Under the pieces are notes generated by a model. The model saw only the letters and a list, made by a program, of their open reading frames with translations. It ran no database searches and was not told where the DNA came from. A stretch of 39,072 bases of DNA. Source: an uncultured Hungatella sp. (lineage in GTDB: Bacteria > Bacillota > Clostridia > Lachnospirales > Lachnospiraceae). The position numbers and the translations under genes are program-made. This document shows, one piece after another, positions 11,308 through 37,495 of this stretch (position 1 is its first letter; every line of letters starts with the position of its first letter). The stretch spans positions 1 to 39,072 of the forward strand of contig CAMTAF010000025.1 in the NCBI GenBank assembly GCA_947066955.1, given 5' to 3'.

Positions 11308-11317
11308 GTGCCGATAC
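11308..11317 (+). repeat. Possible remnant of the 80-bp repeat (3' end only)
   Basis: GTGCCGATAC lies between the recU stop and the ribosome binding site of the next gene. It is identical to the 3' end of the full repeats and occupies the position they have elsewhere: a few bases before an AAGGAGG and in the same orientation as the downstream gene. Only ten bases match, so chance cannot be excluded. Confidence 0.3.
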
Positions 11318-11339
11318 GTCAAAGAAGGAGGTATTTACG

Positions 11340-12755
11340 ATGATCTACAAATGCAGTGTATGCGGGTATGTGTATGATGAGGAGAAAGAGGGCAGGCCGT
11401 TTTCCCAGCTCACAGAATGCCCTCTGTGCAAACAGCCGCCGGAGAGGTTTGAGGCGGTGGGGGAACCAAAGGCGGCAGAGACTTATGTTGATTCCAAAGA
11501 TCAGACAGAAGCCGCAGGCGGAGGGAAGCTGGATTTAGCCTACCCGGAGGAGACCAGAAAGACAGACAGCGATTACCGCTATATGAGGGAGATTCACCAG
11601 ATGGCTGTCACCGGGACATCGGCCATTGAGGCTATGGGCACGCAGATGAAGATGCCAGGATGGGACGATGTGCTGATCCTTGGGGCCCAGCTGAATCCCA
11701 TGCCCTTAGATGAGCACGCCGAAGTGTCCTTAAAAACCGTTATCGGGAAACATGCCAAAAAGCCTATGATCCTGGACATGCCGGTCTACATCTCCCACAT
11801 GTCCTTCGGAGCCCTCTCCAAGGAGACAAAGATCGCCATGGCAAAGGGCAGCGCGGCTGCGGGCACAGCCATGTGCAGCGGGGAGGGGGGAATCCTTCCG
11901 GAGGAAAAAGAAGCAGCTTACAGGTATATCTTTGAATATGTGCCTAATCTGTACAGCGTTACTGACGAGAATCTGAAAACCTCAGACGCGGTTGAGATCA
12001 AGATCGGCCAGGGGACAAAGCCGGGGATGGGGGGACATCTTCCGGGAAGCAAAGTCACGCCCGAGATCGCAAGGATCCGCAGCAAGCCCCTGGGGGAGGA
12101 TGTCATAAGCCCCTCAAGATTCCCGGGGATCAACAGCAGGGAAGACCTAAAAAAGCTGGTAGAGGAGCTGCGGGAGAGAAGCGAGGGCAGGCCTGTGGGC
12201 ATCAAGATTGCCGCCGGACGCATTGAGCGGGATCTGGAATTCTGCGTGTACGCAGGCCCTGATTTCATCACCATAGACGGGCGGGGCGGCGCCACAGGGG
12301 CTTCTCCTGCCATTATACGGGATTCCACCAGCGTCCCCACCATCTACGCCCTTCACCGCGCGAGAAAGTATCTGGATCAGGTGGGCTCTGACATTGACCT
12401 TGTAATCACGGGAGGGCTCAGGGTGTCTTCTGATTTCGCAAAGGCCATCGCCATGGGAGCTGACGCCGTGGCCGTGGCTTCCGCTGCCATGGTTGCGGCC
12501 GCCTGCCAGCAGTACCGCATCTGCGGAACCGGGATGTGCCCCGTAGGAGTGGCCACCCAGGACGAAAAGCTGAGGGAGAGATTGCACATTGACGCCGCGG
12601 CAAAAAGGGTGGAGAACTATCTGAAGTGTTCGGCCCAGGAGCTGAAAACCTTTGCCAGGATCACAGGCAATGAGGATATTCACAGGCTGTCCGTGGAGGA
12701 TCTGTGCACCATCAGCAGAGAAATATCAGAATATACCAGCATCCCTCACGCCTAG
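11340..12755 (+). CDS. Rubredoxin-fused glutamate synthase-like FMN protein
   Basis: A 471-residue fusion. Residues 1-40 are a rubredoxin-type iron site (YKCSVCGYVYDEE with CPLCK), with a spacer to about residue 80. The rest is the FMN-binding alpha/beta barrel of glutamate synthase large subunits: HISHMSFGALSKETK, KIGQGTKPGMGGHLPG, TIDGRGGATGASPAI and SDFAKAIAMGADAVAV. A cysteine cluster near residues 389-400 (CQQYRICGTGMC) is expected to hold the 3Fe-4S cluster. The glutamine amidotransferase domain is absent, as in the short archaeal-type GltB family. It may be an oxidoreductase fed by the rubredoxin centre; glutamate synthesis is not proven. GGAGG at 11328-11332 sets the start. Confidence 0.88.
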   Translation: MIYKCSVCGYVYDEEKEGRPFSQLTECPLCKQPPERFEAVGEPKAAETYVDSKDQTEAAGGGKLDLAYPEETRKTDSDYRYMREIHQMAVTGTSAIEAMGTQMKMPGWDDVLILGAQLNPMPLDEHAEVSLKTVIGKHAKKPMILDMPVYISHMSFGALSKETKIAMAKGSAAAGTAMCSGEGGILPEEKEAAYRYIFEYVPNLYSVTDENLKTSDAVEIKIGQGTKPGMGGHLPGSKVTPEIARIRSKPLGEDVISPSRFPGINSREDLKKLVEELRERSEGRPVGIKIAAGRIERDLEFCVYAGPDFITIDGRGGATGASPAIIRDSTSVPTIYALHRARKYLDQVGSDIDLVITGGLRVSSDFAKAIAMGADAVAVASAAMVAAACQQYRICGTGMCPVGVATQDEKLRERLHIDAAAKRVENYLKCSAQELKTFARITGNEDIHRLSVEDLCTISREISEYTSIPHA

Positions 12756-12770
12756 AGGAGCATGGGAATA

Positions 12771-12850
12771 GGAGGAAGGCAAATGCGCAGCATTTTTAGG
12801 ATGCCTTCCGACGATCTGGCAGGTGGCACAAAGTGCCGCGTGCCGATACC
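12771..12850 (+). repeat. 80-bp structured repeat, unit 1 of a tandem pair
   Basis: A full unit running from GGAGGAAGGC to GCCGATACC. The 5' arm pairs GGAAGGCA with TGCCTTCC (8 bp) and encloses AATGC-GCA-GCATT. The 3' arm has an outer GGCA/TGCC pairing around the hairpin GGCAC-AAA-GTGCC. It also carries its own GGAGG with an ATG seven bases later (12783), opening a frame that runs past the GH13 start in another phase. It lies 13 bases after the rubredoxin-GltB stop and is repeated directly by the next unit. Confidence 0.9.
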
Positions 12851-12855
12851 AGAAG

Positions 12856-12935
12856 GGAGGAAGGCAAATGCGCAGCATTTTCAGGATGCCTTCCGACGAC
12901 CTGGCAGGTGGCACAAAGTGCCGCGTGCCGATACC
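12856..12935 (+). repeat. 80-bp structured repeat, unit 2 of a tandem pair
   Basis: A second full unit five bases after the first, nearly identical to it: CAGGATGCC replaces TAGGATGCC in the 5' arm and CGACGACC replaces CGACGATC at the junction. The 3' hairpin is again GGCAC-AAA-GTGCC. Both units are followed by AGAAGGGAGGA, so the spacer is part of the tandem duplication; the second spacer's GGAGG (12941-12945) serves as ribosome binding site of the GH13 gene. Confidence 0.9.
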
Positions 12936-12955
12936 AGAAGGGAGGAACTTGACTT

Positions 12956-14776
12956 ATGGCATGGTATGATGAAGCCGTGTTCTATCACATTTATCCCCTT
13001 GGGCTCACGGGGGCGCCCAAAACAAATTCTTATGGAGAGCCGGAGCACAGGCTGAATACCCTGATCCCCTGGATCGGCCATATCCGGGAGATCGGGTGCA
13101 GTGCTCTCTATATCGGTCCTCTGTTTGAGTCGGTGGGCCACGGCTATGAGACTACGGATTACAAAAAGCTGGACAGCCGCCTGGGGACCAACGCGGACTT
13201 GACCGCTTTTGTGGAAGAATGCCACAGGCAGGGAGTCCGGGTAATACTGGACGGTGTGTTTAACCATACGGGGAGGGATTTTTTCGCTTTTCAGGATATC
13301 CGGAAAAACAGAGAAGCTTCCCCATATAAGGATTGGTACTGCCATGTGAATTTTTGGGGAAATAATGAGTACAATGACGGATTTTCTTATGACAACTGGG
13401 GGGGCTATGACCTTCTCGCAAAGCTGAATCAGAACAATCCGGAAGTTCGGGATTATATCTGCGATGTCATCCGGTTCTGGGCCAGAGAGTTCAAGATCGA
13501 CGGCATCCGCCTGGATGCCGCGGATGTGCTTGATTTCGGATATATGCAGGCTCTCAGACAGACGGCAAATGAGATCGGACCTGATTTTTGGCTTATGGGG
13601 GAGGTGATCCACGGGGACTACACCAGGTGGGTCAATGGGGGAACCCTCCACTCTGTCACCAACTATCATCTTCACAAGGCTCTCTATTCCGGGCACAATG
13701 ATCACAACTATTTTGAGATCGCCCACACGGTAAAACGGCTCTACGGCATGGGCGGAAACCGGCCCGAGGGACTGAAGCTGTACAATTTTGTGGACAATCA
13801 CGACGTGGAGCGGATCTACACCAAGCTGAACAACAAGGCTCATTTTACGCCAGTCCATATTCTGCTGTACACCCTCCCCGGAGTGCCATCCGTCTATTAC
13901 GGCTCGGAGTTCGGGATCGAGGGGAAGAAGGAGCGGTATTCCGATGATTCCTTAAGGCCGGCTCTGGATCTCAAGGACTATGAGAATGCCCTTCAGGACA
14001 ATGCCTGCACCCGGCTCATCTCCAGGCTGGGAAAGATCCGCCAGAAGGTGAAAGCCCTGTCCTACGGGGATTATCAGGAGCTTGTTCTGACAAACCGCCA
14101 GTACGCCTTTGCCAGGAATTATGATGGAAAATGCGTTGTGACGGCAGTGAACAATGATGACAGCGACGTGTCATTAAGCCTTCCCGTGGGCGGCGCTTCC
14201 CAGTACCAGGAGCAGCTGTCAGGAGAGAGGGTCTCCGTGGCAGACGGGAGGATCCAGGTTCAGGTGAAGGCGAACAGCGGCGGGATCTGGGTTCCTGTGA
14301 GCGGGGACGCTGCTTTCAAAACAGAAGACGGGGCAGTGAAAACAGAGGCAGCCGGAGACAGGCCGACAGAGAGGGCGGCATCAGAAGAGAAGGCCGCTGC
14401 GTCAAGCCGGAAAGCTGGGGCACCGGGCCGGAAGGGGACAGAGCCGAAGAAGAAGAAAGCTGAGGAACCAGGCAGAAACAAGACGGCATCGGAGGAGAAG
14501 AAGGCTGGGGCATCGGGCCGGAAAAAGGCAGCCTCGGGGAAAAAGACCGCGGAACCGACAGCAGAGCAGCCAGAAAGGCCAAAAAAGAAGGCGGAAGCCC
14601 GTAAGGTTTCTGAAAACAGAAAGAAGACTTACGAGGAGATGGATATTCAGGAGCTGCAGCAGGCAATTCTGGAGCGGATGGCTATGAACGGGCCCATAAC
14701 CGACCGTATGCGCCAGGATGTCATGGAGAATGTGTACCACAATTCCCTTGTGAACTGGATTAAAAGTTTCCGATAG
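12956..14776 (+). CDS. GH13 alpha-glucanase-type enzyme with charged C-terminal extension
   Basis: A 606-residue GH13 (alpha-amylase family) enzyme. The barrel blocks are DGVFNHTG (about 99-106), GIRLDAADVLDF with nucleophile D187, LMGEVIHGDY with acid/base E216, and FVDNHDVERI with the third carboxylate D283; all are intact. There is no signal peptide, so it acts in the cytoplasm, probably on maltodextrin or glycogen-derived oligosaccharides (specificity not determinable). After the beta-sandwich, residues about 450-556 form a Lys/Ala/Glu/Pro/Gly-rich disordered linker with imperfect repeats such as KKAGASGRKKAASGKK. The final 50 residues (KTYEEMDIQELQQAILERM to NSLVNWIKSFR) look ordered again, suggesting a small helical tail domain. 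GGAGG at 12941-12945 supports the start, directly after the tandem repeats. Confidence 0.9.
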   Translation: MAWYDEAVFYHIYPLGLTGAPKTNSYGEPEHRLNTLIPWIGHIREIGCSALYIGPLFESVGHGYETTDYKKLDSRLGTNADLTAFVEECHRQGVRVILDGVFNHTGRDFFAFQDIRKNREASPYKDWYCHVNFWGNNEYNDGFSYDNWGGYDLLAKLNQNNPEVRDYICDVIRFWAREFKIDGIRLDAADVLDFGYMQALRQTANEIGPDFWLMGEVIHGDYTRWVNGGTLHSVTNYHLHKALYSGHNDHNYFEIAHTVKRLYGMGGNRPEGLKLYNFVDNHDVERIYTKLNNKAHFTPVHILLYTLPGVPSVYYGSEFGIEGKKERYSDDSLRPALDLKDYENALQDNACTRLISRLGKIRQKVKALSYGDYQELVLTNRQYAFARNYDGKCVVTAVNNDDSDVSLSLPVGGASQYQEQLSGERVSVADGRIQVQVKANSGGIWVPVSGDAAFKTEDGAVKTEAAGDRPTERAASEEKAAASSRKAGAPGRKGTEPKKKKAEEPGRNKTASEEKKAGASGRKKAASGKKTAEPTAEQPERPKKKAEARKVSENRKKTYEEMDIQELQQAILERMAMNGPITDRMRQDVMENVYHNSLVNWIKSFR

Positions 14777-14796
14777 GAGGCAGACCGGAGGATGCC

Positions 14797-15642
14797 ATGA
14801 CTTTTTACGAGATGATCAATGACCTTTCCCTTGCTTTAAGGCGGGAGAAGCTGGTGATCTTTGTGGGGGCCGGGGTTTCTAAAAACTCCGGCCTTCCCAC
14901 ATGGGGGCAGATGGTTCAGGTCTTCGGTGAGAAGATCGGCTACCCTATGGAGGGCAGGCTGGCCACGGATGAGTATATCCGGATTCCCCAGTACTACTAT
15001 TGTCTGGATGAAAGCGAGGGACACCGGGACTACTACTCTCTTCTTGGATCCATGATTCCGGAGGGAATAAAGCCCAATCTCCTGAACCGGCTCATCGCTT
15101 CCCTCCGCCCGAAACACATGGTCACAACCAACTTCGACAACCTTATGGACCAGGTAGCTGACGGCTATCAGATCATTAGGGAGGACCGGGATCTTCTGCG
15201 TGGGATCTCTGCCCATTATCTTTTAAAGCTCCACGGCGATATCCGGCAGCCGGAGAAGCTGGTGTTCAAGGAGGATGACTATCTGCACTACTCGGAGACC
15301 CACCGCCTTATGGAGACATTTTTAAAATATCTTCTCATCGGCCATGTATTTTTGTTTGTGGGCTACTCCCTCAATGATTACAATTTAAAAACCTTTGTCA
15401 GCTGGATCGATTTTATCGCCGATGAGATGCAGGTGAAAAGGGAGATGCACCGCAATTACTTTCTCTCCAGCAGTCTTCACGCGGGAAAGGACTACCTAAA
15501 GAAATATTATGAGGGGAAAGGGATGGAGGTCATTGATCTCCACCGGCTTCCTCCTGAACTTGAAGTCCACGCCGGGACCATAGGATTGGCGGATGACTTG
15601 GGGCGCAGGACTTACGCGGTGCTGGAGCTGCTGCAGCGGTGA
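14797..15642 (+). CDS. SIR2-like domain protein (possible NAD-consuming enzyme)
   Basis: A 281-residue single-domain SIR2-like protein. NAD-binding and catalytic blocks are intact: FVGAGVSKNSGLPTW (GAGVS at 24-28), TTNFDNLMD (N112, D114), LKLHGDI (H146, the catalytic position) and FVGYSLNDYN. It lacks the zinc-finger cysteines of protein-deacetylase sirtuins and belongs to the SIR2_2-type group. Members of this broad group are NAD glycohydrolases in several anti-phage systems, but standalone copies also occur without any known role. Its neighbours here are metabolic; GGAGG at 14787-14791 lies 20 bases after the GH13 stop, and a strong terminator follows, so it closes the long operon. Defence is a possibility, not a conclusion. 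Confidence 0.82.
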   Translation: MTFYEMINDLSLALRREKLVIFVGAGVSKNSGLPTWGQMVQVFGEKIGYPMEGRLATDEYIRIPQYYYCLDESEGHRDYYSLLGSMIPEGIKPNLLNRLIASLRPKHMVTTNFDNLMDQVADGYQIIREDRDLLRGISAHYLLKLHGDIRQPEKLVFKEDDYLHYSETHRLMETFLKYLLIGHVFLFVGYSLNDYNLKTFVSWIDFIADEMQVKREMHRNYFLSSSLHAGKDYLKKYYEGKGMEVIDLHRLPPELEVHAGTIGLADDLGRRTYAVLELLQR

Positions 15643-15657
15643 GAAGAGAAAAATAGA

Positions 15658-15710
15658 TGCTGTCTGTATACTTTTCCGTTTTTGCGGAGAATATACAGAC
15701 GGCATTTTTT
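15658..15710 (+). terminator. Strong intrinsic terminator after the SIR2 gene
   Basis: A 13-bp stem (TGCTGTCTGTATA pairing with TATACAGACGGCA, one G-T pair) encloses a 21-base loop and is followed directly by six T residues. It begins 15 bases after the SIR2 stop codon and ends the long plus-strand run that starts at the M23 gene. Confidence 0.9.
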
Positions 15711-15738
15711 GTTTTATGTACACGGGGCGGAAAGGAAA

Positions 15739-15768
15739 TTTGACTGCACATAGACAGAAATATATAAC
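15739..15768 (+). promoter_or_regulatory. Sigma-70-type promoter for the LysR gene
   Basis: TTGACT at 15739-15744 and TATAAC at 15763-15768 are separated by 18 bases. They lie between the terminator and the LysR gene, about 100 bases before its start, in AT-rich DNA. Confidence 0.55.
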
Positions 15769-15871
15769 CGTCATACAAAAGTATATATTTTACTTCTGAA
15801 ATGCCTTCTTCTATAATGAACCATGGAAGAAGTGTTTCTGCATGAAACCGCCGACGAGAGGAGATAAGGGG

Positions 15872-16732: not shown

Positions 16733-16741
16733 GAGAGAAAG

Positions 16742-16756: not shown

Positions 16757-16777
16757 GATGCTATGATTTTATGCAAT

Positions 16778-22721: not shown

Positions 22722-22748
22722 GATATCATAAGAAAAATGAAGATCATA

Positions 22749-22793
22749 GGAGGAAGGCAAATGCGCAGCATTTTTAGGATGCCTTCCGATACC
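22749..22793 (+). repeat. 80-bp repeat, 5' arm only
   Basis: The 5' arm is intact (GGAAGGCA/TGCCTTCC around AATGC-GCA-GCATT), but TTCCGA joins directly to TACC, so the whole 3' arm is missing. In full units CCGA occurs both at the start of the missing block (TTCCGACGA) and at its end (GTGCCGATACC), so the deletion fits recombination between 4-base direct repeats. It lies upstream of the second lysR, in the same orientation. Confidence 0.85.
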
Positions 22794-22810
22794 CAAAAAG
22801 GAGGAGACAT

Positions 22811-23728
22811 ATGGATTTTCGGGAAATGCTGTATATCACCACAGTTGCGGACTATCAGAGCGTTACGGCTGCGGCGAAGAAGCTGTACATTTCACAGCCT
22901 TCTTTGAGCTACATCATATCCAGGGTGGAGGAGGATGTGGGTGTCCGGTTATTTGAGAGAAAAAACGGACCCTTTAAATTGACTTATGCCGGAGAGAGAT
23001 ATGTGGAGACTGCCAGAAAGATCCTTTTGATGAACGAGAACATGAGGGGGGAACTGAGGGACATGGGCCAGGGGGACAAGGGGATGGTCCATTTCGGAAT
23101 TCCCACGGAGAGGGCGGGCTACATGCTCCCAAGAGTGCTCAAAACATTCCGCAGCCAGTACCCTGCAGCAGAAGTGCGCTTCCAGGAGGCAAAGTCCGAG
23201 GAGCTGTTCCGCCTTCTGATGCGGGATGAGATCCGCTTTTTTGTTCTGCCGGGAAACAGGAGCAAACGAACAGGAGCAGTGAAAACCGAGGGGATCTATA
23301 AAGAGCGGCTGTTTTTGGTGGCAGGACCTGGAGCGGTGCCGGAGGAGGCCGTGACAGCAGGGAAAGAGGTCCCCAGGGTGGCACTGGAGAGGCTTGAAGG
23401 GCTGCCGTTCATCCTTTTGAAGGAAGGCCATGCCATACGGGAAAAGGTGGATCAGGTTCTGGAGAAGCACGGGATCCTGCCGGAGGTGTTCATGGAGATA
23501 TCCAGCTGTATTTCAGCCGTCCAGCTTGCCTCAGCCGGGCTTGGCATCACTATTGTGCCCCAGAGAGCTTTGGATGTGCTGGGCGGCGCGGAGAGATTTT
23601 GCTGTTACCAGTATGGCGAAGAGCCGGACAGCTGGGATATCAATGCAATCTATAAGAAAGAAGTGTACTTAACCCAGATGGAGAGATGCTTTATTGAACT
23701 GATGAAGAAAGAATTCGGGGAAAAGTAA
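22811..23728 (+). CDS. LysR-family transcriptional regulator (downstream of aconitase)
   Basis: A 305-residue LysR regulator with an N-terminal winged helix (YQSVTAAAKKLYISQPSLSYIISRVEEDVG, then RLFERKNGPFKLTYAGE) and a CysB-type effector domain from about residue 90 (GMVHFGIPTERAGYMLPRVL). AAAGGAGG a few bases upstream sets the ATG at 22811. Because it shares strand and locus with aconitase but is separated from it by a terminator and a repeat arm, it is probably transcribed on its own. Effector and targets are unknown; control of the carboxylate locus or self-regulation is plausible. Two distinct LysR proteins thus bracket the esterase-transporter-aconitase genes. Confidence 0.88.
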   Translation: MDFREMLYITTVADYQSVTAAAKKLYISQPSLSYIISRVEEDVGVRLFERKNGPFKLTYAGERYVETARKILLMNENMRGELRDMGQGDKGMVHFGIPTERAGYMLPRVLKTFRSQYPAAEVRFQEAKSEELFRLLMRDEIRFFVLPGNRSKRTGAVKTEGIYKERLFLVAGPGAVPEEAVTAGKEVPRVALERLEGLPFILLKEGHAIREKVDQVLEKHGILPEVFMEISSCISAVQLASAGLGITIVPQRALDVLGGAERFCCYQYGEEPDSWDINAIYKKEVYLTQMERCFIELMKKEFGEK

Positions 23729-28811: not shown

Positions 28812-29333
28812 TTACCCCAGGTTTTTCTTGTCATACTTGTTCACAAGGCGGATGACCCCGCAGCCTATCTTTTCACCGGAATTGCCGGAGGGCTGGGAAT
28901 GGAAATCATCGGATGCCTGATGGATGACAACAGACCTTCCCAGGATCTGCGGGATGGTGAAGCGTTTGTCGAAGAAAGAGATCCAGGCATACCCCTGGTT
29001 GGAGAACAGGGGAAGAAGATCTCCGCTGTGCTGGGGATGAGCTGTTTGGTAGGGATTGTAATGTCCCCCTGTGTTCCGGAAGTCATCCCCGCAGTCTCCG
29101 CTTTCGTGAATATGCATGCCGTAAAAGTCAGAGGCCCCTGTCTGGAGCCTGTCAGGCAGCCCGAACAGCTCTGCCTCTATGAGAGTGCCGCCGTAGGGGG
29201 TCTCGTAAAATTTTACCAGTCCGCTCAGGGCCGGAGCCCCGGACCCGCCTGTAACCCAGGCCATAGCCATGGGTTCATTGTCTTCCAGGATCTCCGCGAA
29301 GATGTCACCTGGAGTTTTCTGTCTGTCAGCCAT
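28812..29333 (-). CDS. Cu/Zn superoxide dismutase family protein without signal peptide
   Basis: A 173-residue Cu/Zn-SOD fold protein. Metal ligands are all visible: the HIH pair in GMHIHESGDC, the bridging histidine in GGHYNP, the HPQHSGDL zinc histidines and aspartate, and the final copper histidine in VVIHQASDDF. The cysteines in ESGDC and IGCGVI can form the family disulphide. Two points are odd: there is no export signal although bacterial SodC proteins are normally exported, and the arginine that guides superoxide (GNAG-x-R) is lysine here (GNSGEK). Activity is therefore likely but not certain. GGAGGAGG upstream sets the ATG. A full 80-bp repeat, co-oriented, lies in its upstream region. 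Confidence 0.85.
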   Translation of the reverse strand: MADRQKTPGDIFAEILEDNEPMAMAWVTGGSGAPALSGLVKFYETPYGGTLIEAELFGLPDRLQTGASDFYGMHIHESGDCGDDFRNTGGHYNPYQTAHPQHSGDLLPLFSNQGYAWISFFDKRFTIPQILGRSVVIHQASDDFHSQPSGNSGEKIGCGVIRLVNKYDKKNLG

Positions 29334-29350: not shown

Positions 29351-29382
29351 TTTTTATAGTAACGGCTTTTTATGGTAACGGC
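29351..29382. repeat. 16-bp tandem duplication next to an 80-bp repeat
   Basis: TTTTTATAGTAACGGC and TTTTTATGGTAACGGC lie head to tail with one difference. The inner copy includes the 3' end of the minus-strand 80-bp unit (GGTAACGGC in place of GGTATCGGC), so the duplication straddles the unit's boundary and adds 16 bases between it and the sodC ribosome binding site. Confidence 0.75.
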
Positions 29383-29453
29383 ACGCGCCGCTACGCGTCA
29401 CCTGCCAGGACGTCGGAAGGCATCTTAAAAATGCTGCGCATTTGCCTTCCTCC
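29374..29453 (-). repeat. 80-bp structured repeat, minus strand
   Basis: A full-length unit (exactly 80 bases) reading toward the sodC-like gene. Its 5' arm keeps GGAAGGCA/TGCCTTCC and AATGC-GCA-GCATT; AAGATGCC replaces AGGATGCC. The 3' hairpin is GACGC-GTA-GCGGC, with one A-G mismatch, and the end is GTTACC rather than GATACC. GGAGG and ATG in the 5' arm open a short frame beginning MRSIFKMPSDVLAG that stops at TAG in the hairpin loop. Confidence 0.88.
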
Positions 29454-29504
29454 TAAAATATGGGCAGGGTTAAGCTGTGGTGTGCATGTTAAGGAAATAT
29501 TTAG

Positions 29505-29597: not shown

Positions 29598-30701
29598 ATG
29601 GAAAATAATAAGAAAAAGATCATACTGACCGGCGACCGTCCCACAGGGCGGCTTCATGTAGGCCACTATGTGGGTTCTTTAAGGCGGCGTGTAGAGCTTC
29701 AGGAATCCGGCGGTTTTGATCAGATCTTCATCATGATAGCAGACGCTCAGGCTCTTACGGATAATGCGGACAATCCGGAGAAAGTAAGGCAGAACATTAT
29801 CGAGGTGGCTTTGGACTATCTCTCCTGTGGTCTGGATCCGGATAAATCCACCCTTTTTATCCAGTCTCAGGTGCCGGAACTGACGGAGCTCACTTTCTAC
29901 TATATGAATCTGGTGACCGTGTCCAGGCTCCAGAGAAATCCCACAGTGAAGAACGAGATTAAGCTGCGCAACTTTGAGACCAGCATTCCGGTGGGATTTT
30001 TTGCTTATCCTATCAGCCAGGCATCGGACATCACTGCCTTTAAAGCCACCACAGTGCCTGTGGGGGAGGATCAGCTTCCCATGATCGAGCAGACAAGGGA
30101 GATTGTCAGGAGCTTTAACCATATCTACGGGGAAGTCCTTGTGGAGCCGGACGTGCTTCTGCCGGATAACAAGGCGTGTCTGCGTCTTCCCGGTATTGAC
30201 GGAAAAGCCAAGATGAGCAAATCTTTAAACAACTGTATCTATCTGTCAGACACAGAGGAGGAGGTGCAGAAAAAAGTGATGAGCATGTTCACGGATCCCA
30301 ATCACCTCCGCGTCCAGGATCCGGGGCAGGTGGAGGATAATCCGGTGTTCATCTACTTGGACGCTTTCTGCAAAGATGAGCACTTCGCCCGATTCTGGCC
30401 GGAATATAAAAATCTTGAGGAGCTGAAAGCCCATTATACCAGAGGCGGACTGGGCGATGTGAAGGTGAAGCGCTTCTTAAACCAGGTGCTCCAGTGTGAA
30501 CTGGCTCCTATCCGGGCCCGCAGAAAAGAGTACGAGAAAAATATTCCCGAGGTCTACCGCATCCTGAAAGAGGGGAGCATCCGGGCCCAGAAAACAGCGG
30601 CCCAGACTCTTGCGGAGGTCAAGGCCGCCATGAAGATCAACTATTTTGACGACGAGGAACTGATCCGTAGTCAGGCCCAGCGTTTCCACGGGGAGAACTG
30701 A
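29598..30701 (+). CDS. trpS: Tryptophanyl-tRNA synthetase
   Basis: A 367-residue class I aminoacyl-tRNA synthetase that charges tRNA-Trp. The HIGH-type signature is [14 protein letters not shown] near the N-terminus, the KMSKS loop is [15 protein letters not shown], and [15 protein letters not shown] and [11 protein letters not shown] are TrpRS-specific blocks. It is slightly longer than the roughly 330-residue Bacillus enzyme. GAGGAGGAAAC at 29580-29590 precedes the ATG at 29598. The leader is about 64 bases after the candidate promoter motif. Its stop TGA overlaps the ATG of the D,D-carboxypeptidase gene, tying an essential translation gene to a cell wall gene. Confidence 0.95.
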
Positions 30702-32584
30702 TGACCGTGAGAAGTTATGTAAAGAGAAAAAGCATGAGAGCATGTAAAAGGATGGCAGCGGCGGTTCTGGCCTTTGGCCTTGGAGTCTCCCTGCCGGGAC
30801 AGACTGCATGGGCAAAGGATTGGGAGGACAGAGAGGATTGGACCCTGTCTGAGGCGGTGGTGGATACAGAGGGGAGAGAAGGCTTTGTCTGGGAAGCAGA
30901 GACGGGGCCGGCGCCAAAGAATACAGGCTCCTCTCAGGTGAGCCGGACAGGCCCGCCGGGAGATTCCCAGGATTCCGCTGCCGGGGCAGGTCCCGACGGC
31001 GGGGGAAACGGCTCTCTTCAGGTGAGCCAGACAAGTCCGTCAGAGGATTCCCAGGGAGCCTCTGAAAAGCCGTCAGGCCCGGTGGGAACGGAGGTCTCCG
31101 GCCAAGCGCCGTCAGATCCGGCGGGAGGCACGGGAACCTCCGGCCAGGCGCCGTCAGGTCCGGCGGGGGGTACGGGAACCTCCGGCCAGGCGCCGCCAGG
31201 TCCGGTGGGGGGCACGGGAACCTCGGGCCAGACGCCGCCAGGTCCGGCGGGAGGTACGGGAACCTCCGGCCAGGCATCGTCAGGTCCGGCGGGAGGGACC
31301 CAGGACGGGAGTCAGGCGCCCGGTGATTTTGCGGGAAGGACAGACGCTGCTGGCGTCACTCAGGCTTCGGATGGCCCGTCTTCCTCCGGATCCAATCCTT
31401 CCGGAGAAACCAGTGGGGCCGGGCAGGCAAATGCCGGAAACCAGGAGGACGCCTCAATCCCACGGCCTGAGATCAAGTCCGAGGGCGCCGTGGTCATGGA
31501 CGCGGCCACGGGAAAGATCCTTTTGGGAAAAAACGAGACAGCCCGTTTCTACCCAGCCAGCATCACAAAGCTGATGACAGCCATGCTGGTTCTGGAGAAG
31601 ACCGATCTAAGCGACATGGTCACTTTCTCAAAAAGCGCCACCACCAACTTGGAGTCCGGGGCCTCGACCCTGAATCTGACGGAGGGGGACCGGCTGACGG
31701 TGGAGCAGTGTCTTTACGGCCTGCTGTTAAAATCAGCCAATGAGATCGGCAACGCCCTGGCAGAACATATTTCCGGGAGCGTCAGCGGTTTTGCGGACCT
31801 GATGAACCAGAGGGCGGCTCAGCTTGGCTGCACAGGAACGCATTTTGCCAACCCTCACGGTCTCAACAACAGCAATCACTATACCACGCCTTACGACATG
31901 GCTCTCATCGCGAGAGCCGCATTTCAGAATGAGACACTGTGCAGGATTGATACTACGGTCAGCTACCAGTTTCCAGCCACGAAAAAAGAAGGGGCCAGAA
32001 CCATCTCCATGGGGCACAAGATGATGCTTCCCTCAGATTCCAGATATTATGAAGGGATCATAGGGGGAAAGACAGGTTACACGTCCCTGGCAGGCAACAC
32101 CCTGGTTACCGGGGTGGAGAGGGATGGAGTCCGCCTGGTGGCGGTGGTCATGAAGAGCAAGTCCACCCATTATGAGGATACCAAAGCTCTTCTGGACTAT
32201 GGCTTTGCGGTCATGGCCAGGTCGAAGGGCGGTGAGCAAGTCCGGGAATCCGGAGACGCTTCCCAGAAACCATCCCTTGGCTGGAAAAAGGACGGCCAAG
32301 GCTGGATTTACATAAAGCAGGATGGAAATCAGGCAGCGGGAGAGTGGGTCCGCGACGGACAGACCGATTACTGGATTGATCCGGACGGCTACATGGCTAC
32401 CGGGTGGCGGCAGTTTGCAGGCGGAGACTGGTATTATTTCCGCTCAAACGGGGCCAAGGCAGTGGATTATTGGGTTATGGATTACGGCAAATGGTTTTAT
32501 CTGGGGGCGCAGGGGGTTATGCTGGCGGGCACCAGGACACCGGATGGGTATGTGCTGGGGGCCGACGGAGCCTGGATCCCGTGA
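30701..32584 (+). CDS. D-alanyl-D-alanine carboxypeptidase with repeat linker and wall-binding C-terminus
   Basis: A 627-residue secreted penicillin-binding protein (peptidase S11, DacF group). A basic signal peptide ends near residue 38 (AWA). Residues about 40-260 are a Gly/Ser/Pro/Thr linker with 14-residue repeats of the form GGTGTSGQAPSGPA. The catalytic domain has S287 in SITK (K290), S345 in SAN and K457 in KTG. After about residue 525 come glucan/choline-binding-type repeats (GWIYIKQDGNQAAGEW, DYWIDPDGYMATGWRQF, WYYFRSNGAKAVDYW). It should trim the terminal D-Ala from peptidoglycan stems while attached to the wall. GGGGAG at 30690-30695 and the overlap with trpS set the start. Confidence 0.9.
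   Translation: MTVRSYVKRKSMRACKRMAAAVLAFGLGVSLPGQTAWAKDWEDREDWTLSEAVVDTEGREGFVWEAETGPAPKNTGSSQVSRTGPPGDSQDSAAGAGPDGGGNGSLQVSQTSPSEDSQGASEKPSGPVGTEVSGQAPSDPAGGTGTSGQAPSGPAGGTGTSGQAPPGPVGGTGTSGQTPPGPAGGTGTSGQASSGPAGGTQDGSQAPGDFAGRTDAAGVTQASDGPSSSGSNPSGETSGAGQANAGNQEDASIPRPEIKSEGAVVMDAATGKILLGKNETARFYPASITKLMTAMLVLEKTDLSDMVTFSKSATTNLESGASTLNLTEGDRLTVEQCLYGLLLKSANEIGNALAEHISGSVSGFADLMNQRAAQLGCTGTHFANPHGLNNSNHYTTPYDMALIARAAFQNETLCRIDTTVSYQFPATKKEGARTISMGHKMMLPSDSRYYEGIIGGKTGYTSLAGNTLVTGVERDGVRLVAVVMKSKSTHYEDTKALLDYGFAVMARSKGGEQVRESGDASQKPSLGWKKDGQGWIYIKQDGNQAAGEWVRDGQTDYWIDPDGYMATGWRQFAGGDWYYFRSNGAKAVDYWVMDYGKWFYLGAQGVMLAGTRTPDGYVLGADGAWIP
31079..31288 (+). repeat. Five 42-bp tandem repeats in the carboxypeptidase linker
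   Basis: Five consecutive 42-base units, in frame, each encode 14 residues (variants of AGGTGTSGQAPSGP). The first is the most diverged (CCGGTGGGAACGGAGGTC); the last four differ at a few bases only. Copy number is expected to vary between strains by slippage without breaking the frame. Confidence 0.9.
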
Positions 32585-32617
32585 CGCGGCATGCAGCTGC
32601 CGTGAGGAGGGGAGAAT

Positions 32618-33373: not shown

Positions 33374-33485
33374 ACCGGGGCTTTTGCGATCTTTCCGTGG
33401 CAGGAAAAGAAGCGGCAAAAGGGCGTATATTTTTGACGGAGCGGCAGATACTACCTTTATCAATTTATTTCCAGGAGGTAGTTTT

Positions 33486-34082
33486 ATGCGGGATCTTAAA
33501 AACAGTGAAACCCTGAAAAATCTCATGCGGGCATTTGCCGGGGAGAGCCAGGCCAGGAACCGCTACACCTTTGCGGCAGGGATCGCGAAAAAGGAGGAGC
33601 TTCCGGTGATCGAAGCCCTGTTCCAGTTTACGGCGGACCAGGAGAAAGCCCATGCGGAGCTGTTTTATGATTACATGAAGGAGCTGTCCGGGGAGAATAT
33701 CCATATAGACGGAGGTTATCCGGTGAACATCTCCCAGAAGACCATAGATCTCCTGAAAGCCGCCAGACACAACGAGTACGAGGAGCACGATGTGGTGTAC
33801 AAGGAGTTCGGGGACAAGGCCAAGGCGGAAGGCTTTGAGGAGATCGGGAGAGTGTTCCACCAGATCGCGGCTGTGGAGAAGATGCACGGAGACAGGTTTG
33901 AGCTGTTCGCAGATCTGATGGAGCAGAACAAGCTGTTTGTGTCGGATATTGCCACAGGCTGGATGTGCCTCAACTGCGGCCATGTTCTGACAGCAACCCA
34001 GGCGCCGGGGAGATGTCCGGTGTGCAAACACGAACAGGGCTATTTTGTGCGCCTGGAGCTGGCACCCTTTACCAGGCTGTAA
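33486..34082 (+). CDS. rbr: Rubrerythrin
   Basis: A 198-residue rubrerythrin, the NAD(P)H-linked peroxidase of anaerobes. The N-terminal diiron four-helix bundle shows FAGESQARNRYTF and DQEKAHAELF on one side and HNEYEEHDVVYKEF and AAVEKMHGDRFELF on the other, giving the expected Glu and His ligands. The C-terminal rubredoxin domain is shortened (WMCLNCGHVL and CPVCKHEQGYF) with both CxxC pairs. It reduces hydrogen peroxide with electrons from a rubredoxin-type donor. The frame is open from 33258, but AGGAGG at 33473-33478 and the family N-terminus set the ATG at 33486. A weak TTGACG at 33433 may belong to its promoter. An 80-bp repeat follows the stop. Confidence 0.92.
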   Translation: MRDLKNSETLKNLMRAFAGESQARNRYTFAAGIAKKEELPVIEALFQFTADQEKAHAELFYDYMKELSGENIHIDGGYPVNISQKTIDLLKAARHNEYEEHDVVYKEFGDKAKAEGFEEIGRVFHQIAAVEKMHGDRFELFADLMEQNKLFVSDIATGWMCLNCGHVLTATQAPGRCPVCKHEQGYFVRLELAPFTRL

Positions 34083-34088
34083 AACTTA

Positions 34089-34168
34089 GGAGGAAGGCAA
34101 ATGCGCAGCATTTTTAGGATGCCTTCCGACGACCTGGCAGGTTCCGTGAAACGGAGCGTGCCGATACC
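34089..34168 (+). repeat. 80-bp structured repeat between rubrerythrin and phosphoesterase
   Basis: A full unit with the AATGC-GCA-GCATT form of the 5' arm and the TCCGT-GAA-ACGGA form of the 3' hairpin. Its internal GGAGG and ATG (34101) open a complete 24-codon frame (MRSIFRMPSDDLAG...) that stops at 34173-34175, immediately before the AGGAGGAAGG that serves the phosphoesterase start. It begins seven bases after the rubrerythrin stop. Confidence 0.92.
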
Positions 34169-34187
34169 TATTTAGTAGGAGGAAGGT

Positions 34188-35054
34188 ATGTGGAAATTGG
34201 CGGCAGCGGCCGGAGCGGCAGCATGTTGTCTCCGGTCAGAGTGGGAGCGGAGGCATTTTGTCACACAGACCTATGAATTGTCATCGGAGAAGGTGAAGGA
34301 GGGAAAGACATTGGTGTTTCTCTCCGATCTCCATGATAACTGTTTCGGTCCGGGACAGAGGGAGCTGCTGGAGGAGATCCGCAGGATCCGGCCAGACGCG
34401 GTTCTTATCGGCGGGGATATGATGGTGGTGAAGAAGGAGGCGCAGTTGGAGGCTTCCTTATTTTTGGTAAAAGAACTGGCCCGACTGTATCCGGTTTATT
34501 ATGGCAACGGAAACCATGAGAACCGGATGGAGCGGAAGAGGGAAAAGTACGGGGATCAATACGATGTCCTTGTGCGGGAGCTTAAAGGAGCGGGCATATG
34601 CCATCTGTCGGACGAAAGCGCGAACCTTCCGGGCAATATCCGGGTCAGCGGCCTGAACCTGGAAAAAAAGCATTATAAAAAAAGAGCCTGCGGAAGGCTG
34701 GAGGGAGGCTACATAGAGAAGCGCCTGGGAGCGGCGTCCAAAGACCGCTATCAGATTCTCCTGGCCCACTCGCCTCTCTTTAGGCAGGACTACGCCGAAT
34801 GGGGCGCGGATCTGACTCTTTCCGGACATTTCCACGGGGGAACCATAAGGATACCGGGGCTGGGAGGGGTTATGACACCTCAATTTCACTTTTTTCTGGA
34901 CTGCTGCGGGGGCTGTCTAAAAACAGGAGAAAAGGCCATGATCGTCAGCAGAGGGCTTGGGACCCATTCCATAAACCTAAGGCTCAACAACCGGCCTGAG
35001 CTGGTAACGGTGCGGATAAAAGAGAGGAGGAAGGCAAACGCGGAGCGTTTTTAG
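34188..35054 (+). CDS. Membrane-associated metallophosphoesterase
   Basis: A 288-residue calcineurin-like phosphoesterase. A short hydrophobic N-terminus (MWKLAAAAGAAACCL) may anchor it. Metal-binding motifs are in order: FLSDLHDN (D47, H49), IGGDMMV (D77), YGNGNHEN (N109, H110), LLAHSPLF, and LSGHFHGGTIRIP. The layout matches the YkuE/LpxH-like group, so a phosphodiester or lipid-linked substrate is possible. AGGAGGAAGG directly before the ATG sets the start. Its last eight to nine codons and its TAG stop are supplied by the 5' arm of an 80-bp repeat that begins at 35026, so the natural C-terminus has been replaced or extended by RRKANAERF. Confidence 0.87.
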   Translation: MWKLAAAAGAAACCLRSEWERRHFVTQTYELSSEKVKEGKTLVFLSDLHDNCFGPGQRELLEEIRRIRPDAVLIGGDMMVVKKEAQLEASLFLVKELARLYPVYYGNGNHENRMERKREKYGDQYDVLVRELKGAGICHLSDESANLPGNIRVSGLNLEKKHYKKRACGRLEGGYIEKRLGAASKDRYQILLAHSPLFRQDYAEWGADLTLSGHFHGGTIRIPGLGGVMTPQFHFFLDCCGGCLKTGEKAMIVSRGLGTHSINLRLNNRPELVTVRIKERRKANAERF

Positions 35055-35105
35055 GATGCCTTCCGACGACTTGGCAGGTGACGCAAAGCGTCGCGTGCCG
35101 ATACC
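35026..35105 (+). repeat. 80-bp structured repeat overlapping the phosphoesterase stop
   Basis: A full unit with the AACGC-GGA-GCGTT version of the 5' inner hairpin and GACGC-AAA-GCGTC in the 3' arm, both perfectly paired. Its first 29 bases are coding for the phosphoesterase and provide its stop (TTTTTAG). The change from ATG to ACG removes the start codon found in other units. It is the first of a tandem pair. Confidence 0.92.
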
Positions 35106-35111
35106 ACTGAA

Positions 35112-35191
35112 GGAGGAAGGCAAACGCGGAGCGTTTTTAGGATGCCTTCCGACGACCTGGCAGGTTCCGTGAAACGGAGCGTGCCGATACC
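35112..35191 (+). repeat. 80-bp structured repeat upstream of scpA
   Basis: The second unit of the pair, six bases after the first. Its 5' arm equals its neighbour's (AACGC-GGA-GCGTT), but its 3' hairpin is TCCGT-GAA-ACGGA, as in the unit at 34089. It is followed by ACTGAAGGAGGAAGGCAGG, which repeats the first bases of a third unit and acts as the scpA ribosome binding site. An ATG at 35142 inside it is in frame with scpA. Confidence 0.92.
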
Positions 35192-35219
35192 ACTGAAGGA
35201 GGAAGGCAGGAGAATAACG

Positions 35220-36020
35220 ATGACAGCCATATCTTACAAATTGGATAATTTTGAGGGCCCTCTGGATCTTTTACTCCACCTGATCGAGAAAAATAAGGTG
35301 AGCATCTACGATATCCCCATTGTCCTGATTACAGAACAGTACCTGGACTATGTGAGCCATATGGAGAGGGAGGATCTCAACGTGGTCAGCGAGTTCCTGG
35401 TGATGGCGGCCACCCTGATCGATATCAAGTCCCGCATGCTTTTGCCTGCGGAGGTGAACGAGGAGGGCGAGGAGGAGGATCCCAGGGCAGAGCTGGTAGC
35501 CCGCCTTTTGGAGTACAAGATGTACAAATATATGGCTCAGGAGCTTCTGGAGATGGAGGAGGCGGCAGAGCGCCATCTGTACAGGGAGCCCGCGGTGCCC
35601 CAGGAGGTGGCCAGGTATGAGCCTCCTGTGGACCTTGATGAGCTTCTGGGCGGGCTGACCCTGGCAAAGCTTAAGACGGTCTTTGAATCCGTCATGAAAC
35701 GCAGGGAGGACAAGATCGACCCCATCAGGAGCCGGTTCGGGACCATCCGCAAGGAGCCGGTAAGCCTGGAAGCCAGGGTGAACCGGGTCATGGATTATGC
35801 CAGAGGCCACAGGAGATTCAGCTTCCGTCAGCTTCTGGAAAGGCAGGGGGATAAGATAGAGATCGTGGTCACCTTTCTGGCAGTGCTGGAGCTGATGAAG
35901 ATGGGGAAGATTTATCTGACCCAGGAGGAACTGTTCGACGATATGAATATAGAAACTCTGGAGCCGGAGGGCCAGGAAGAGGAACTGGATCTGGAAGGAC
36001 TGGAGGATTTTGAAGGGTAG
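35220..36020 (+). CDS. scpA: Segregation and condensation protein A
   Basis: A 266-residue kleisin subunit that joins SMC and ScpB in the chromosome-condensing complex. Residues YKLDNFEGPLDLLLHLIEKNKVSIYDIPI and ITEQYLDYVSHME are the diagnostic ScpA N-terminus that binds the SMC neck, and the C-terminal winged helix (IVVTFLAVLELMKMGKIYLTQEE) binds the SMC head. The frame is open upstream to an ATG at 35142, but those 26 residues (MPSDDLAGSVKRSVPIP...) are translated from the 80-bp repeat and are not part of the family. AGGAGGAAGGCAGG lies just before the ATG at 35220, the correct start. It overlaps or abuts scpB. Confidence 0.95.
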   Translation: MTAISYKLDNFEGPLDLLLHLIEKNKVSIYDIPIVLITEQYLDYVSHMEREDLNVVSEFLVMAATLIDIKSRMLLPAEVNEEGEEEDPRAELVARLLEYKMYKYMAQELLEMEEAAERHLYREPAVPQEVARYEPPVDLDELLGGLTLAKLKTVFESVMKRREDKIDPIRSRFGTIRKEPVSLEARVNRVMDYARGHRRFSFRQLLERQGDKIEIVVTFLAVLELMKMGKIYLTQEELFDDMNIETLEPEGQEEELDLEGLEDFEG

Positions 36021-36030
36021 AGAACGGCAG

Positions 36031-36696
36031 ATGGATAAGATAAAGCACGAGAGAGACGGAGAAGTCAAAGAGAAGACTGTTACAGCGCCGAAGAAACATT
36101 GGGAACATGTGGTGGAGGCTGTTCTGTTCGCCATGGGACAGTCTGTGGAGCTGCGGCAGCTGGCGGCGGCCATCGGCGAGAGTGAGGAGACGGCGGCCCA
36201 GGTGACAGAGGATTTGAAAAAGAAATATGACAAGGAAAAGCGGGGAATGCAGATTATTGAGCTGGACAGGAGCTATCAGATGTGTACCAGGGCAGAGTAC
36301 TATGAGAATCTGATCCAGGTGGCGGCGACACCCAAAAAGCATGTGCTCACAGACGTGATTCTGGAAACCCTGTCCATCATTGCCTACAAGCAGCCGGTGA
36401 CGAAGCTGGAGATCGAGAAGATCCGGGGAGTGAAGTCCGATCATGCGGTGAACCGTCTCATCGAGTACAATTTAGTCCATGAGGTGGGCCGCTTAGATGC
36501 CCCGGGCCGCCCTGCCCTGTTTGCCACCACTGAGGAATTCCTCCGAAGATTCGGCATCGGCTCCATGGAAAATCTCCCTGCCATGGACCCCGTCCGGGCA
36601 GAGGAGATCAGAAGCCAGGTGGAGGAAGAGCTGAATGCAGCTGTGGATCAGCCGGGGCAGGAGGCAGAGGCAGGGGAAGAAGATGAAATTTTATAG
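36031..36696 (+). CDS. scpB: Segregation and condensation protein B
   Basis: About 221 residues with two winged-helix domains typical of ScpB: HVVEAVLFAMGQSVELRQLAAAIG, then TDVILETLSIIAYKQPVTKLEIEKIRGVKSDHAVNRLIEYNLVHEVGRLDAPGRP, the family signature. It dimerises and binds ScpA in the SMC complex. A TTG at 36010 is in frame but lies only three bases from a GGAGG inside scpA; the ATG at 36031 was chosen, with only a weak AAGGG upstream, so translation is probably coupled to scpA. The acidic C-terminus is disordered. Its 3' end overlaps the convergent peptidase E gene by six bases (TTATAG holds both stops). Confidence 0.93.
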   Translation: MDKIKHERDGEVKEKTVTAPKKHWEHVVEAVLFAMGQSVELRQLAAAIGESEETAAQVTEDLKKKYDKEKRGMQIIELDRSYQMCTRAEYYENLIQVAATPKKHVLTDVILETLSIIAYKQPVTKLEIEKIRGVKSDHAVNRLIEYNLVHEVGRLDAPGRPALFATTEEFLRRFGIGSMENLPAMDPVRAEEIRSQVEEELNAAVDQPGQEAEAGEEDEIL

Positions 36697-37428
36697 CTCC
36701 ATCTTGCAGCCCTTGGCGCAGATTTTTTCCATAACGCCGTTACATAGCCGGTAGGCTTCGCCCCGGAGCAGCCGGAGGCCGTCCTGTACCAGAACATAGC
36801 TTCCGTCCACCAGGACGTAAAATGTATGTCCGCGGCTGTCCTCGAAAGTAATATCCTCATACAGCCGCCTCCCGTCCAGGATGCGGTCTTTTACTTCCTG
36901 ATAATGGGGGAGAATCTGTAAGTCTGTCAGGCCCAGGCCTTTTAGAAATCTTCGATATCCCGGGTCTGCGGATTCACCGGGAAGTTCCGGCTGGGCGTAG
37001 ACCGTGTCAGCGCAGTTCATGGTGCCGGCGCTGATGCCCATGACGGTGCCTTCAAATCCGGCGAGCTGAGCCTTAAGGCCGATCTGGGCAAAAAAAGCAT
37101 TCTGAGTGGGCACATGGCCTCCCGCCAGAATCACAATCAGGCTTTCCTTGAGAAGGCGGTTAAGCTCTCTCTGATTTCTTCTGTCGAGGAGGACCAGACC
37201 GGCCACGGGGATGCCGCTGATCTCAAAAAATCCTCGAAACTCTTCTTTCATCTTGTCATTGCGGGAGAAAGCCTCCGGGTCTGAGGAGATCATCAGACAC
37301 TGGCAGCCAGGCTCCCATCCTTTGGAGAATTCTTCCAGAAATCCATTTTCCCTGCTGTAGCCATAGAGGATGCTGCCATCCTTCTGAGGGTATGGGCTGC
37401 AGGGACTGCTTGTGAGAAACAGTTTCAT
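36691..37428 (-). CDS. Peptidase S51 family (dipeptidase E-like)
   Basis: About 245 residues of the peptidase E/S51 fold. The nucleophile serine lies in MGISAGTMNCAD (GxSAG), AGGHVPTQNAFF precedes it as in the family, and the histidine is likely in LQILPHYQEVKD. PepE cleaves N-terminal aspartyl dipeptides; related members act as cyanophycinases, but the short length fits PepE. The frame extends to 37527, but those 33 residues are read from a repeat fragment; AAGGAG just upstream favours the ATG at 37428 (MKLFLTSSPCSPYP). It converges with scpB and lies downstream of degV on the minus strand. Confidence 0.87.
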   Translation of the reverse strand: MKLFLTSSPCSPYPQKDGSILYGYSRENGFLEEFSKGWEPGCQCLMISSDPEAFSRNDKMKEEFRGFFEISGIPVAGLVLLDRRNQRELNRLLKESLIVILAGGHVPTQNAFFAQIGLKAQLAGFEGTVMGISAGTMNCADTVYAQPELPGESADPGYRRFLKGLGLTDLQILPHYQEVKDRILDGRRLYEDITFEDSRGHTFYVLVDGSYVLVQDGLRLLRGEAYRLCNGVMEKICAKGCKMEL

Positions 37429-37447
37429 AAAGACTCCTTTCTGCAGA

Positions 37448-37495
37448 ATCGGCACGCGCCGCTGCGCGTCACCTGCCAGGGCGTGGGAATGCCTG
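37448..37495 (-). repeat. Degenerate 80-bp repeat with 3' arm only
   Basis: Read on the minus strand, CCTGGCAGGT, the hairpin GACGC-GCA-GCGGC and GCGTGCCGAT are clear; the 5' arm is reduced to a diverged AGGCATTCCCACG. It starts at the degV stop codon and ends about 12 bases before the peptidase E ribosome binding site, co-oriented with that gene. The degV stop (CATTAG) may itself descend from the unit's GCATTTTTAG. Confidence 0.7.

Follow-up and report, generated by a model that had tools for sequence, protein, structure and literature searches.

A divergent GA-cis subfamily that probably acts as a mobile repeat inserted in sense orientation before ribosome-binding sites

The short folded repeats in a 39,072-nt stretch of contig CAMTAF010000025.1 from an uncultured Hungatella sp. 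(hereafter the window) are a divergent subfamily of the Rfam family GA-cis (RF02987). We consider it probable (roughly 0.7) that they are a high-copy, non-coding and non-autonomous mobile repeat whose copying takes place in trans, by way of a folded form of the sense strand. If the copies are indeed mobile and aimed at ribosome-binding sites, GA-cis would have to be reread as the RNA of a mobile element and not as a regulator, covariation by itself would be no evidence for gene control, and the repeat would be unusual among those of bacteria in its sense-only target next to the Shine-Dalgarno (SD) sequence. The fixed 3' ends further raise the question of RNA-templated copying of short bacterial elements.

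Results

Units in the window and family assignment

A full unit starts with AGGAGG, continues with two covarying hairpins and ends in a GATACC-type tail. The six full units in the window aligned with one another without gaps and scored 97–110 bits with R1, a covariance model whose 27 input units included these six (Table 1). The gathering cut-off of RF02987 (34.7 bits) was reached by three of the six in a scan of the window and by two more in a scan of the genome. R1 thereby bore out the six full units of the original prediction, and of its partial units two, at 22745 and 37441. A further piece, at 11308, resembles only the 3' tail by eye (GTGCCGATAC...AAGGAGG) and was absent from the R1 matches at E ≤ 5.

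Table 1. Repeat units in the window and the genes that follow them.
Feature	Position	Strand	Support
Candidate 3'-tail remnant, 5' of the SD for the 11340 gene	11308-11335	+	Weak, by eye
Full unit, tandem pair member 1	12767-12854	+	RF02987 46.4 bits (window scan); R1 109.9 bits
Full unit, tandem pair member 2	12852-12939	+	RF02987 41.5 bits (genome scan); R1 97.1 bits
Alpha-amylase gene, 3' of the 12767 pair	12956-14776	+	PF00128
Unit with internal deletion: arm 2 missing, arm 1 and GATACC tail kept	22745-22797	+	R1 53.5 bits; sequence
LysR-type regulator gene, 3' of the 22745 unit	22811-23728	+	PF00126, PF03466
Cu/Zn superoxide dismutase-like gene, 3' of the 29370 unit	28812-29333	-	PF00080
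Full unit	29370-29457	-	R1 104 bits; sequence; absent from RF02987 lists (window and genome scans)
Full unit	34085-34172	+	RF02987 50.7 bits (window scan)
Metallophosphoesterase gene, 3' of the 34085 unit	34188-35054	+	PF00149
Full unit	35022-35109	+	R1 109.3 bits; RF02987 46.5 bits (genome scan)
Full unit, tandem pair member 2, before scpA	35108-35195	+	RF02987 47.7 bits (window scan)
ScpA gene, 3' of the 35022 pair	35220-36020	+	PF02616
5'-truncated unit: arm 2 and tail, arm 1 lost	37441-37500	-	R1 40.8 bits; flagged truncated

The second member of the amylase pair and the internally deleted unit are each followed by an SD and then by the start of the next gene. The minus-strand full unit sits upstream of the Sod_Cu gene, and the 34085 unit has a rubrerythrin stop on one side and the metallophosphoesterase SD on the other. 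The metallophosphoesterase frame itself runs into the 35022 unit and ends at that unit's TAG. The 5'-truncated unit is followed by the SD and the start codon (ATG at 37428, placed by eye) of an S51-peptidase-like gene on the minus strand.

The window units share with the Rfam consensus the 5' AGGAGG, the inner hairpin, the CCGACGA joint, the GATAC tail and the 88-position layout. They differ in arm 2 (TGGCAGG...CGTGCC), which lacks the two GA/GA internal loops of the consensus, as judged from the RF02987 alignments of two window units. As a separate observation, GA-type arms were seen by eye at C76:9539 in the host genome and in units of genome G003.

GA-cis was reportedly first described by Weinberg et al. 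in 2017 and belongs to the large group of predicted RNA motifs for which no function is known; Rfam files it as 'Gene; sRNA'. The literature searched, to which the original description did not belong, yielded a single table line on the family in the available part of the Rfam 15 article, and no mention of mobility or SD-adjacent insertion. The original prediction held that the family may be undescribed and that a match to a named family would count against it. The units do match a named family, but the match extends to the name and not to the biology.

Filled and empty sites in relatives

Across three close relatives with flank identities of 90–96%, the unit was missing from at least one genome at 16 of the 20 sites compared and present in every genome examined at the other four; six further shared sites (four and two) had been excluded when the 20 were chosen. 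For the ortholog search 24 pieces were entered and 19 sites followed, L185, L226, L233, L242 and L246 being dropped for no, weak or short matches. Comparison was with a single genome at L238 (absence) and at L241 and L209 (shared), and possible remnants were seen at two of the 16 absence sites (L177 in G062, L203 in both genomes). A covariance-model search of the orthologous regions agreed with the filled and empty calls made by eye; the L266 match and one of the two L267 matches lay at a different site, about 350 nt upstream. Within the window, the 34085 site was empty in all 14 relatives in which both flanking genes were located (20 of 25 relatives compared), and at the 35108 site no unit lay between the two flanking genes in 20 of 20 relatives compared (of 25). 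Such empty orthologous sites make mobilisation in trans, which the original prediction had raised conditionally, likely.

At the cleanest junctions the unit was added directly 5' of a native SD or purine tract, in the sense direction. Some left junctions show a loss of 10–20 nt of target, and insertion L159 has no SD on its right side. No clean target-site duplication was found in the junctions read by eye. Strand-specific insertion without such a duplication fits these junctions, yet AGGAGG is present in many targets as well as in the unit itself. One gene retains one to four units across five genomes, which could reflect a function.

Copy number and spread

Exact patterns for arm 2 and arm 1 matched 277 and 209 places in the host genome, respectively, with 0 matches for the reversed control of either. 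Exact arm patterns were chosen over a permissive two-arm regular-expression scan, which could not tell the strands apart, since palindromic arms are matched on either one, and so gave no usable information. The model search gave at least 125 host matches, a lower bound since 150 of 409 first-look candidates were scored. The spread is patchy, with units in 5 of 150 family genomes, host included, and stem sequences are mostly species-specific. Adjacent units of tandem arrays are more alike (0.95, 22 pairs) than other pairs (0.85, 6533 pairs). Viral contigs gave 0 exact matches for two arm-2 patterns, which argues against phage carriage.

Placement relative to genes

A sense ORF started no more than 24 nt downstream at 76 of 102 host sites, the other 26 lying outside that range, compared with 7.9% of 20000 random points; these 102 sites are the genome-search matches plus the 29370 unit, a sample biased to full units and with some sites at contig ends. 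Antisense starts were found within the same 24 nt at 0 of the 102 sites and farther away, within 400 nt, at 39, the nearest at 40 nt. In other species 44 of 73 sites were within 26 nt of a start, so that both sets match the upstream-of-gene position implied by the name GA-cis. The left end of the unit often coincides with, or extends across, the preceding gene's stop codon. Such placement could partly reflect selection instead of targeting.

The AGGAGG, a short spacer and an ATG might open a conserved short frame that runs through the unit and serves to couple translation. A start codon does follow AGGAGG shortly in 108 parsed units, and some of the frames stop immediately ahead of the SD that comes next. 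However, in 58 of the 125 distinct host units AGGAGG is not followed by such a codon (19 more were unparsed), and among the 108 start-bearing units from all genomes 47 are in frame and 39, about one in three, are in frame and stay open as far as the tail. The missing starts and a share of open frames near one in three argue against a conserved upstream ORF or leader peptide, which we find extremely improbable.

Fold and covariation

The original prediction that both sides of a stem change together was supported by comparison with shuffled alignments. For 27 units of the host genome, 27 doubly changed cells were counted against 8.1 in shuffles (0 of 500 shuffles) and 7 doubly changed pairs against 2.9 (1 of 500); further pair types showed no excess (9 against 8.5, 226 of 500). 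For 111 distinct rows from many genomes, the corresponding values were 407 against 99.5 doubly changed cells (0 of 500), 19 against 16.3 doubly changed pairs (12 of 500) and a covariation score of 0.465 against 0.121 (0 of 500). G-U cells outnumbered A-C cells by 95 to 5, or 30 to 5 leaving out one mostly U-G pair, and the fold is therefore carried by the sense strand. The folded form thus matters, as had been proposed, being under selection. Pairing in the second hairpin, once described as perfect, has exceptions: the 29370 unit has GACGC/GCGGC with an A.G mismatch, and the same A and G stand at this pair in 33 of 109 aligned host units.

Conserved unpaired bases beside this covarying fold, the sense orientation with tight SD spacing and the single gene with one to four units in five genomes would all suit a cis-regulatory RNA, either riboswitch-like or a protein-binding leader, acting on the translation of the gene that follows, in line with the name GA-cis. 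Against it, hundreds of host copies precede unrelated genes, and at 16 of 20 sites the unit is missing from one or more genomes with closely similar flanks. With the unit in place the predicted mean unpaired probability of the SD was 0.56, the same as with shuffled units (0.56), and for an RNA starting after the unit it was 0.68; the observed value exceeded the shuffled one in 40 of 78 units, which argues against sequestration or insulation of the SD by the unit. Taken together, we find a cis-regulatory role unlikely. Nor do we read the units as ligand-specific riboswitches; the downstream genes, as seen from domains in the window and from sites in other species, are unrelated and do not form one pathway.

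Truncated copies

In a chosen sample, truncated copies mostly kept the 3' end by the SD and had lost the 5' part. Among the 171 exact arm-2 places with retrieved sequence, 16 did not show a complete arm 1; inspection by eye put 13 of them down as 5'-truncated and three as internal collapses. For arm 1, nine of 139 exact places with retrieved sequence were flagged, by eye four tail-only differences, four internal deletions with tail and one without 3' end. The retrieved sequence included two non-random sets of regions: 20 picked for having no listed exact arm-1 partner, and 20 (11 arm-1 and 9 arm-2 places) partly without a listed partner.

Discussion

The mobile repeat that we favour would be copied in trans as a folded sense-strand molecule, either RNA or single-stranded DNA, whose 3' end would be joined at AG/AGG in the target. 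The fold would be kept because copying passes through it, sense orientation and SD adjacency would follow from the strand specificity of the AG/AGG target, and insertion would be tolerated since the native SD stays in place. Any effect on the mRNA would be secondary.

One possible route, to which we give a rather low probability, is retroposition like that of SINEs, in which a short folded RNA borne on an mRNA and ending near the SD would be reverse-transcribed in trans, with AG/AGG microhomology priming its 3' end at a different gene's SD. Units inserted by this route would lie in sense orientation immediately upstream of SDs and share a fixed 3' end; some would be truncated at the 5' end, and small stretches of target would be lost to their left. 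RVT_1 matches, two in each of four genomes and one of the eight with an internal stop, single out no reverse transcriptase as partner; judging by eye, we take the ORFs at four RVT_1 loci to be of different kinds, and we therefore name none. As to the original prediction's remark that the window has no transposase, the enzyme domains looked for were two, Y1_Tnp and RVT_1, each across the whole genome.

REP and BIME elements, which are associated with RAYT, are likewise short intergenic hairpin repeats that number in the hundreds and carry a GGAG-type motif ahead of the hairpin. The GGAG-containing motif of the unit resembles the REP tetranucleotide and stands before two hairpins, and the targets show AG/AGG and no clear duplication, features that would suit a REP- or PATE-like element moved in trans as single-stranded hairpin DNA by a Y1 transposase of the IS200/IS605 type. 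The units differ from REP and BIME elements in their sense placement before an SD and in their 5'-truncated copies, which would be unexpected of such an element. In searches of four assemblies, all incomplete, PF01797 (Y1_Tnp) had 0 matches in the host and G062, although at least 125 and at least 56 unit matches were listed for these two unit-rich genomes, and one match each in G061 and G063, at 3.4-kb loci without the searched arm motifs. The lack of a match in the host and G062 assemblies argues against a Y1/RAYT partner, and a REP- or PATE-like origin seems improbable.

The preferred trans-copied repeat also lacks the features of DDE-type MITEs: AGGAGG at one end and GATACC at the other do not make an inverted repeat, and the junctions read by eye have no clean duplication. 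According to the available part of PMC3049150, the pneumococcal BOX, RUP and SPRITE elements are lineage-restricted short repeats with a transcribable fold, in which they resemble the units, and are over-represented between convergent genes; BOX is modular, BOX and RUP have terminal inverted repeats and cause target-site duplications, and the present-day mobility of the pneumococcal repeats is slow. Compared with this account, the units described here show no clean target-site duplication and lie in sense direction before gene starts.

Units in the window and their fold

We searched the window against Rfam, and three units matched RF02987 (GA-cis), so that the family is not undescribed, as the original prediction had thought possible. 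The repeat itself is real: the window holds six full units, which align with one another without gaps, and two partial ones. In the 4.22 Mb host genome, a search with RF02987 that scored 150 of 409 candidates gave at least 125 matches at E ≤ 1e-3, and exact patterns of arm 2 and arm 1 were found at 277 and 209 places, respectively. In the Rfam consensus, arm 2 is interrupted by two GA/GA internal loops, whereas the window units carry TGGCAGG...CGTGCC there. Both arm 2 types were present in the host genome and in the related genome G003, and arm 2 therefore has two or more forms on a shared scaffold. We conclude that the units are a divergent GA-cis subfamily behaving as a sense-oriented mobile repeat adjacent to Shine-Dalgarno (SD) sequences. 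The GA-cis name is known; the mobile, SD-adjacent behavior was not found in the literature searched, which excluded the family's original description.

Folded as RNA, one unit formed two hairpins with an energy of -36.7 kcal/mol (z -4.55), which none of 200 shuffles equaled. As the z of the unit folded as DNA was close to this value (-4.69), energy alone cannot separate RNA from DNA. By eye, the arm 2 deletion in one window unit is bounded precisely by two CCGA direct repeats, which suggests that it arose by slippage between them. In G016, three canonical GA-type units were embedded in a longer repeat that measures as much as ~240 bp; its flanking GGCTC/GAGCC sequences may base-pair with each other and so enclose the unit. 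No SD and start were seen by eye directly behind these three units. The window also contains direct repeats with 42-bp spacing that encode a Gly/Ser/Pro-rich repeat of the GTSGQAPSGPAG type.

Coordinates of units and associated features
Feature	Position or locus	Genome
Unit without arm 2	22745-22797	Host (window)
Direct repeats within ORF 30701-32584	31081-31341	Host (window)
Unit before metallophosphoesterase	34085	Host (window)
Unit pair before scpA	35022/35108	Host (window)
Longer repeat with GA-type unit (reverse-complement coordinates)	L143 1432-1669, L144 1404-1539, L145 1398-1636	G016
MNILEV gene with units	L147, L150/L163, L152/L216, L153/L179, L198	G002, G004, G008, G018 and L198 record

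Covariation and the selected strand

The predicted stem covariation withstood statistical testing against shuffles, both in host units and in rows from many genomes. Among 27 host-genome units, 7 pairs were altered on both sides (2.9 in shuffles) and 27 cells were doubly altered (8.1 in shuffles); slid structures collapsed, and further pair types were not above shuffles (226/500). A wider alignment, fitted to the model and thus biased towards it, took in relatives and other Lachnospiraceae (111 distinct rows). Here, 96.6% of cells were paired, with 407 doubly altered cells against 99.5 in shuffles and a covariation score of 0.465 against 0.121. Both-side change was seen in 19 of 23 pairs of these rows compared with 16.3 in shuffles, 12 of 500 shuffles reaching 19. 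When 109 host units were aligned by sequence only (MAFFT), the top-scoring pair was a stem pair and more stem pairs stood at ranks 8 and 9, the ranks between being adjacent columns upset by loop-length differences. Contrary to what had been claimed, arm 2 is not always perfectly paired: 33 of 109 host units have an A·G mismatch.

G-U cells outnumbered A-C cells by 95 to 5, or by 30 to 5 without a single, mostly U-G pair. A fold of the antisense strand would reverse this excess; hence, the strand selected for the fold is the sense strand, with RNA and sense-strand single-stranded DNA not separated by these counts.

Placement beside genes

The striking feature of the units is their placement. 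When 126 host units were grouped into 102 sites, a sense ORF start with an SD lay within 400 nt at 94 sites and within 24 nt at 76, while 7.9% of 20,000 random points in the sampled loci passed the 24-nt test. Antisense starts were within 400 nt at 39 of the 102 sites, the nearest 40 nt away. For other species, a start was found within 26 nt at 44 of 73 sites; some of the remaining sites are at contig ends. In these species, the closest antisense start was 56 nt away. Upstream sequence was long enough for comparison at 97 host sites, and at 59 of them a same-strand ORF ended in the interval from 40 nt before the unit to 75 nt into it; 16 of these ORFs stop at the TAG of TAGGAGG, and the metallophosphoesterase frame of the window stops at a TAG within the 35022 unit. 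PMC3049150 describes enrichment of the pneumococcal BOX, RUP and SPRITE repeats between convergent genes, in contrast to the sense placement before starts seen here.

The reading of the units as regulatory elements for adjoining genes is weaker. The strongest argument for a local role comes from a single gene (MNILEV...GLCKSYRD, an ABC-ATPase by eye) with one to four units upstream in five genomes. Units adjoin amylase, LysR, superoxide dismutase, phosphoesterase and ScpA genes in the window and unrelated genes elsewhere, and predicted SD accessibility was equal with the unit and with a shuffled unit.

Filled and empty sites

The mobile-repeat reading draws on comparisons of filled and empty sites, which indicate that the units move. 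The site before metallophosphoesterase had no unit in the relatives with genes located (14 of 20 fetched), and the site before scpA had none in all 20; the sole model matches in these loci lay behind scpA, in G003. Because these relatives were only 65-79% identical here, three closer MAGs were used (reached via loci L162, L161 and L181, flanks 90-96% identical; 52, 56 and 51 listed unit matches, respectively). Excluding sites already seen as shared (four plus two), 16 of 20 compared sites were without a unit in one or more genomes, with concordant results by eye and by model search of orthologs. By eye, the unit was inserted immediately upstream of a native AG/AGG tract (in most cases an SD) at L223, L225, L228, L229, L230 and the L218/L258 site, and ~10-20 nt of upstream target was missing at L190, L232, L227 and L238. 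Empty sites corresponding to L190, L175 and L159 have no AGGAGG on the left, so this motif is part of the unit; the right-hand SD is the native one, except at L159, where the insertion has no SD directly on its right side. When L245 was compared with L286 (G062), the gene without a unit began with TAGGAGGAAGGCTTATGC, which is identical to the 5' end of the unit itself, as if the SD and ATG of the unit had been captured as the start of the gene via a deletion.

A profile search for PF01797 (Y1_Tnp, IS200/IS605-type transposase) gave no match in the host assembly or G062. Reverse transcriptase (RVT_1) had two matches in each of four genomes, which permit a reverse-transcription model but do not support it because the ORFs at these loci seem, by eye, to be of different kinds. 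Incomplete reverse transcription leaves fixed 3' ends and ragged 5' ends. In a chosen sample inspected by eye, 13 copies lacked the 5' part and kept the tail before the SD, one lacked the 3' end, and internally deleted copies retained the tail; this lopsided truncation could also come from selection on the sequence adjoining the SD. Tandem arrays look like local duplications, with a mean similarity of 0.95 for 22 adjacent pairs against 0.85 for 6533 other pairs, several adjacent pairs being no closer than ordinary ones.

Spread among genomes

The distribution of the units is patchy. With the host included in both counts, RF02987 matched 17 of 61 genomes under strict filters and our own covariance model 5 of 150 family genomes at E ≤ 1e-8. 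A scan of species genomes yielded at least 66 stretches with the unit pattern; the matches listed were mainly from Lachnospiraceae, and among them were Hungatella, Enterocloster, Butyrivibrio, Lachnotalea, Clostridiaceae and Eubacteriales. Viral contigs contained no exact match to two arm 2 patterns. By eye, stem sequences were much alike inside a species and different between most species, with the exception of three close MAGs, which have common stem sequences; lineage-specific bursts would give such likeness within species and difference between them.
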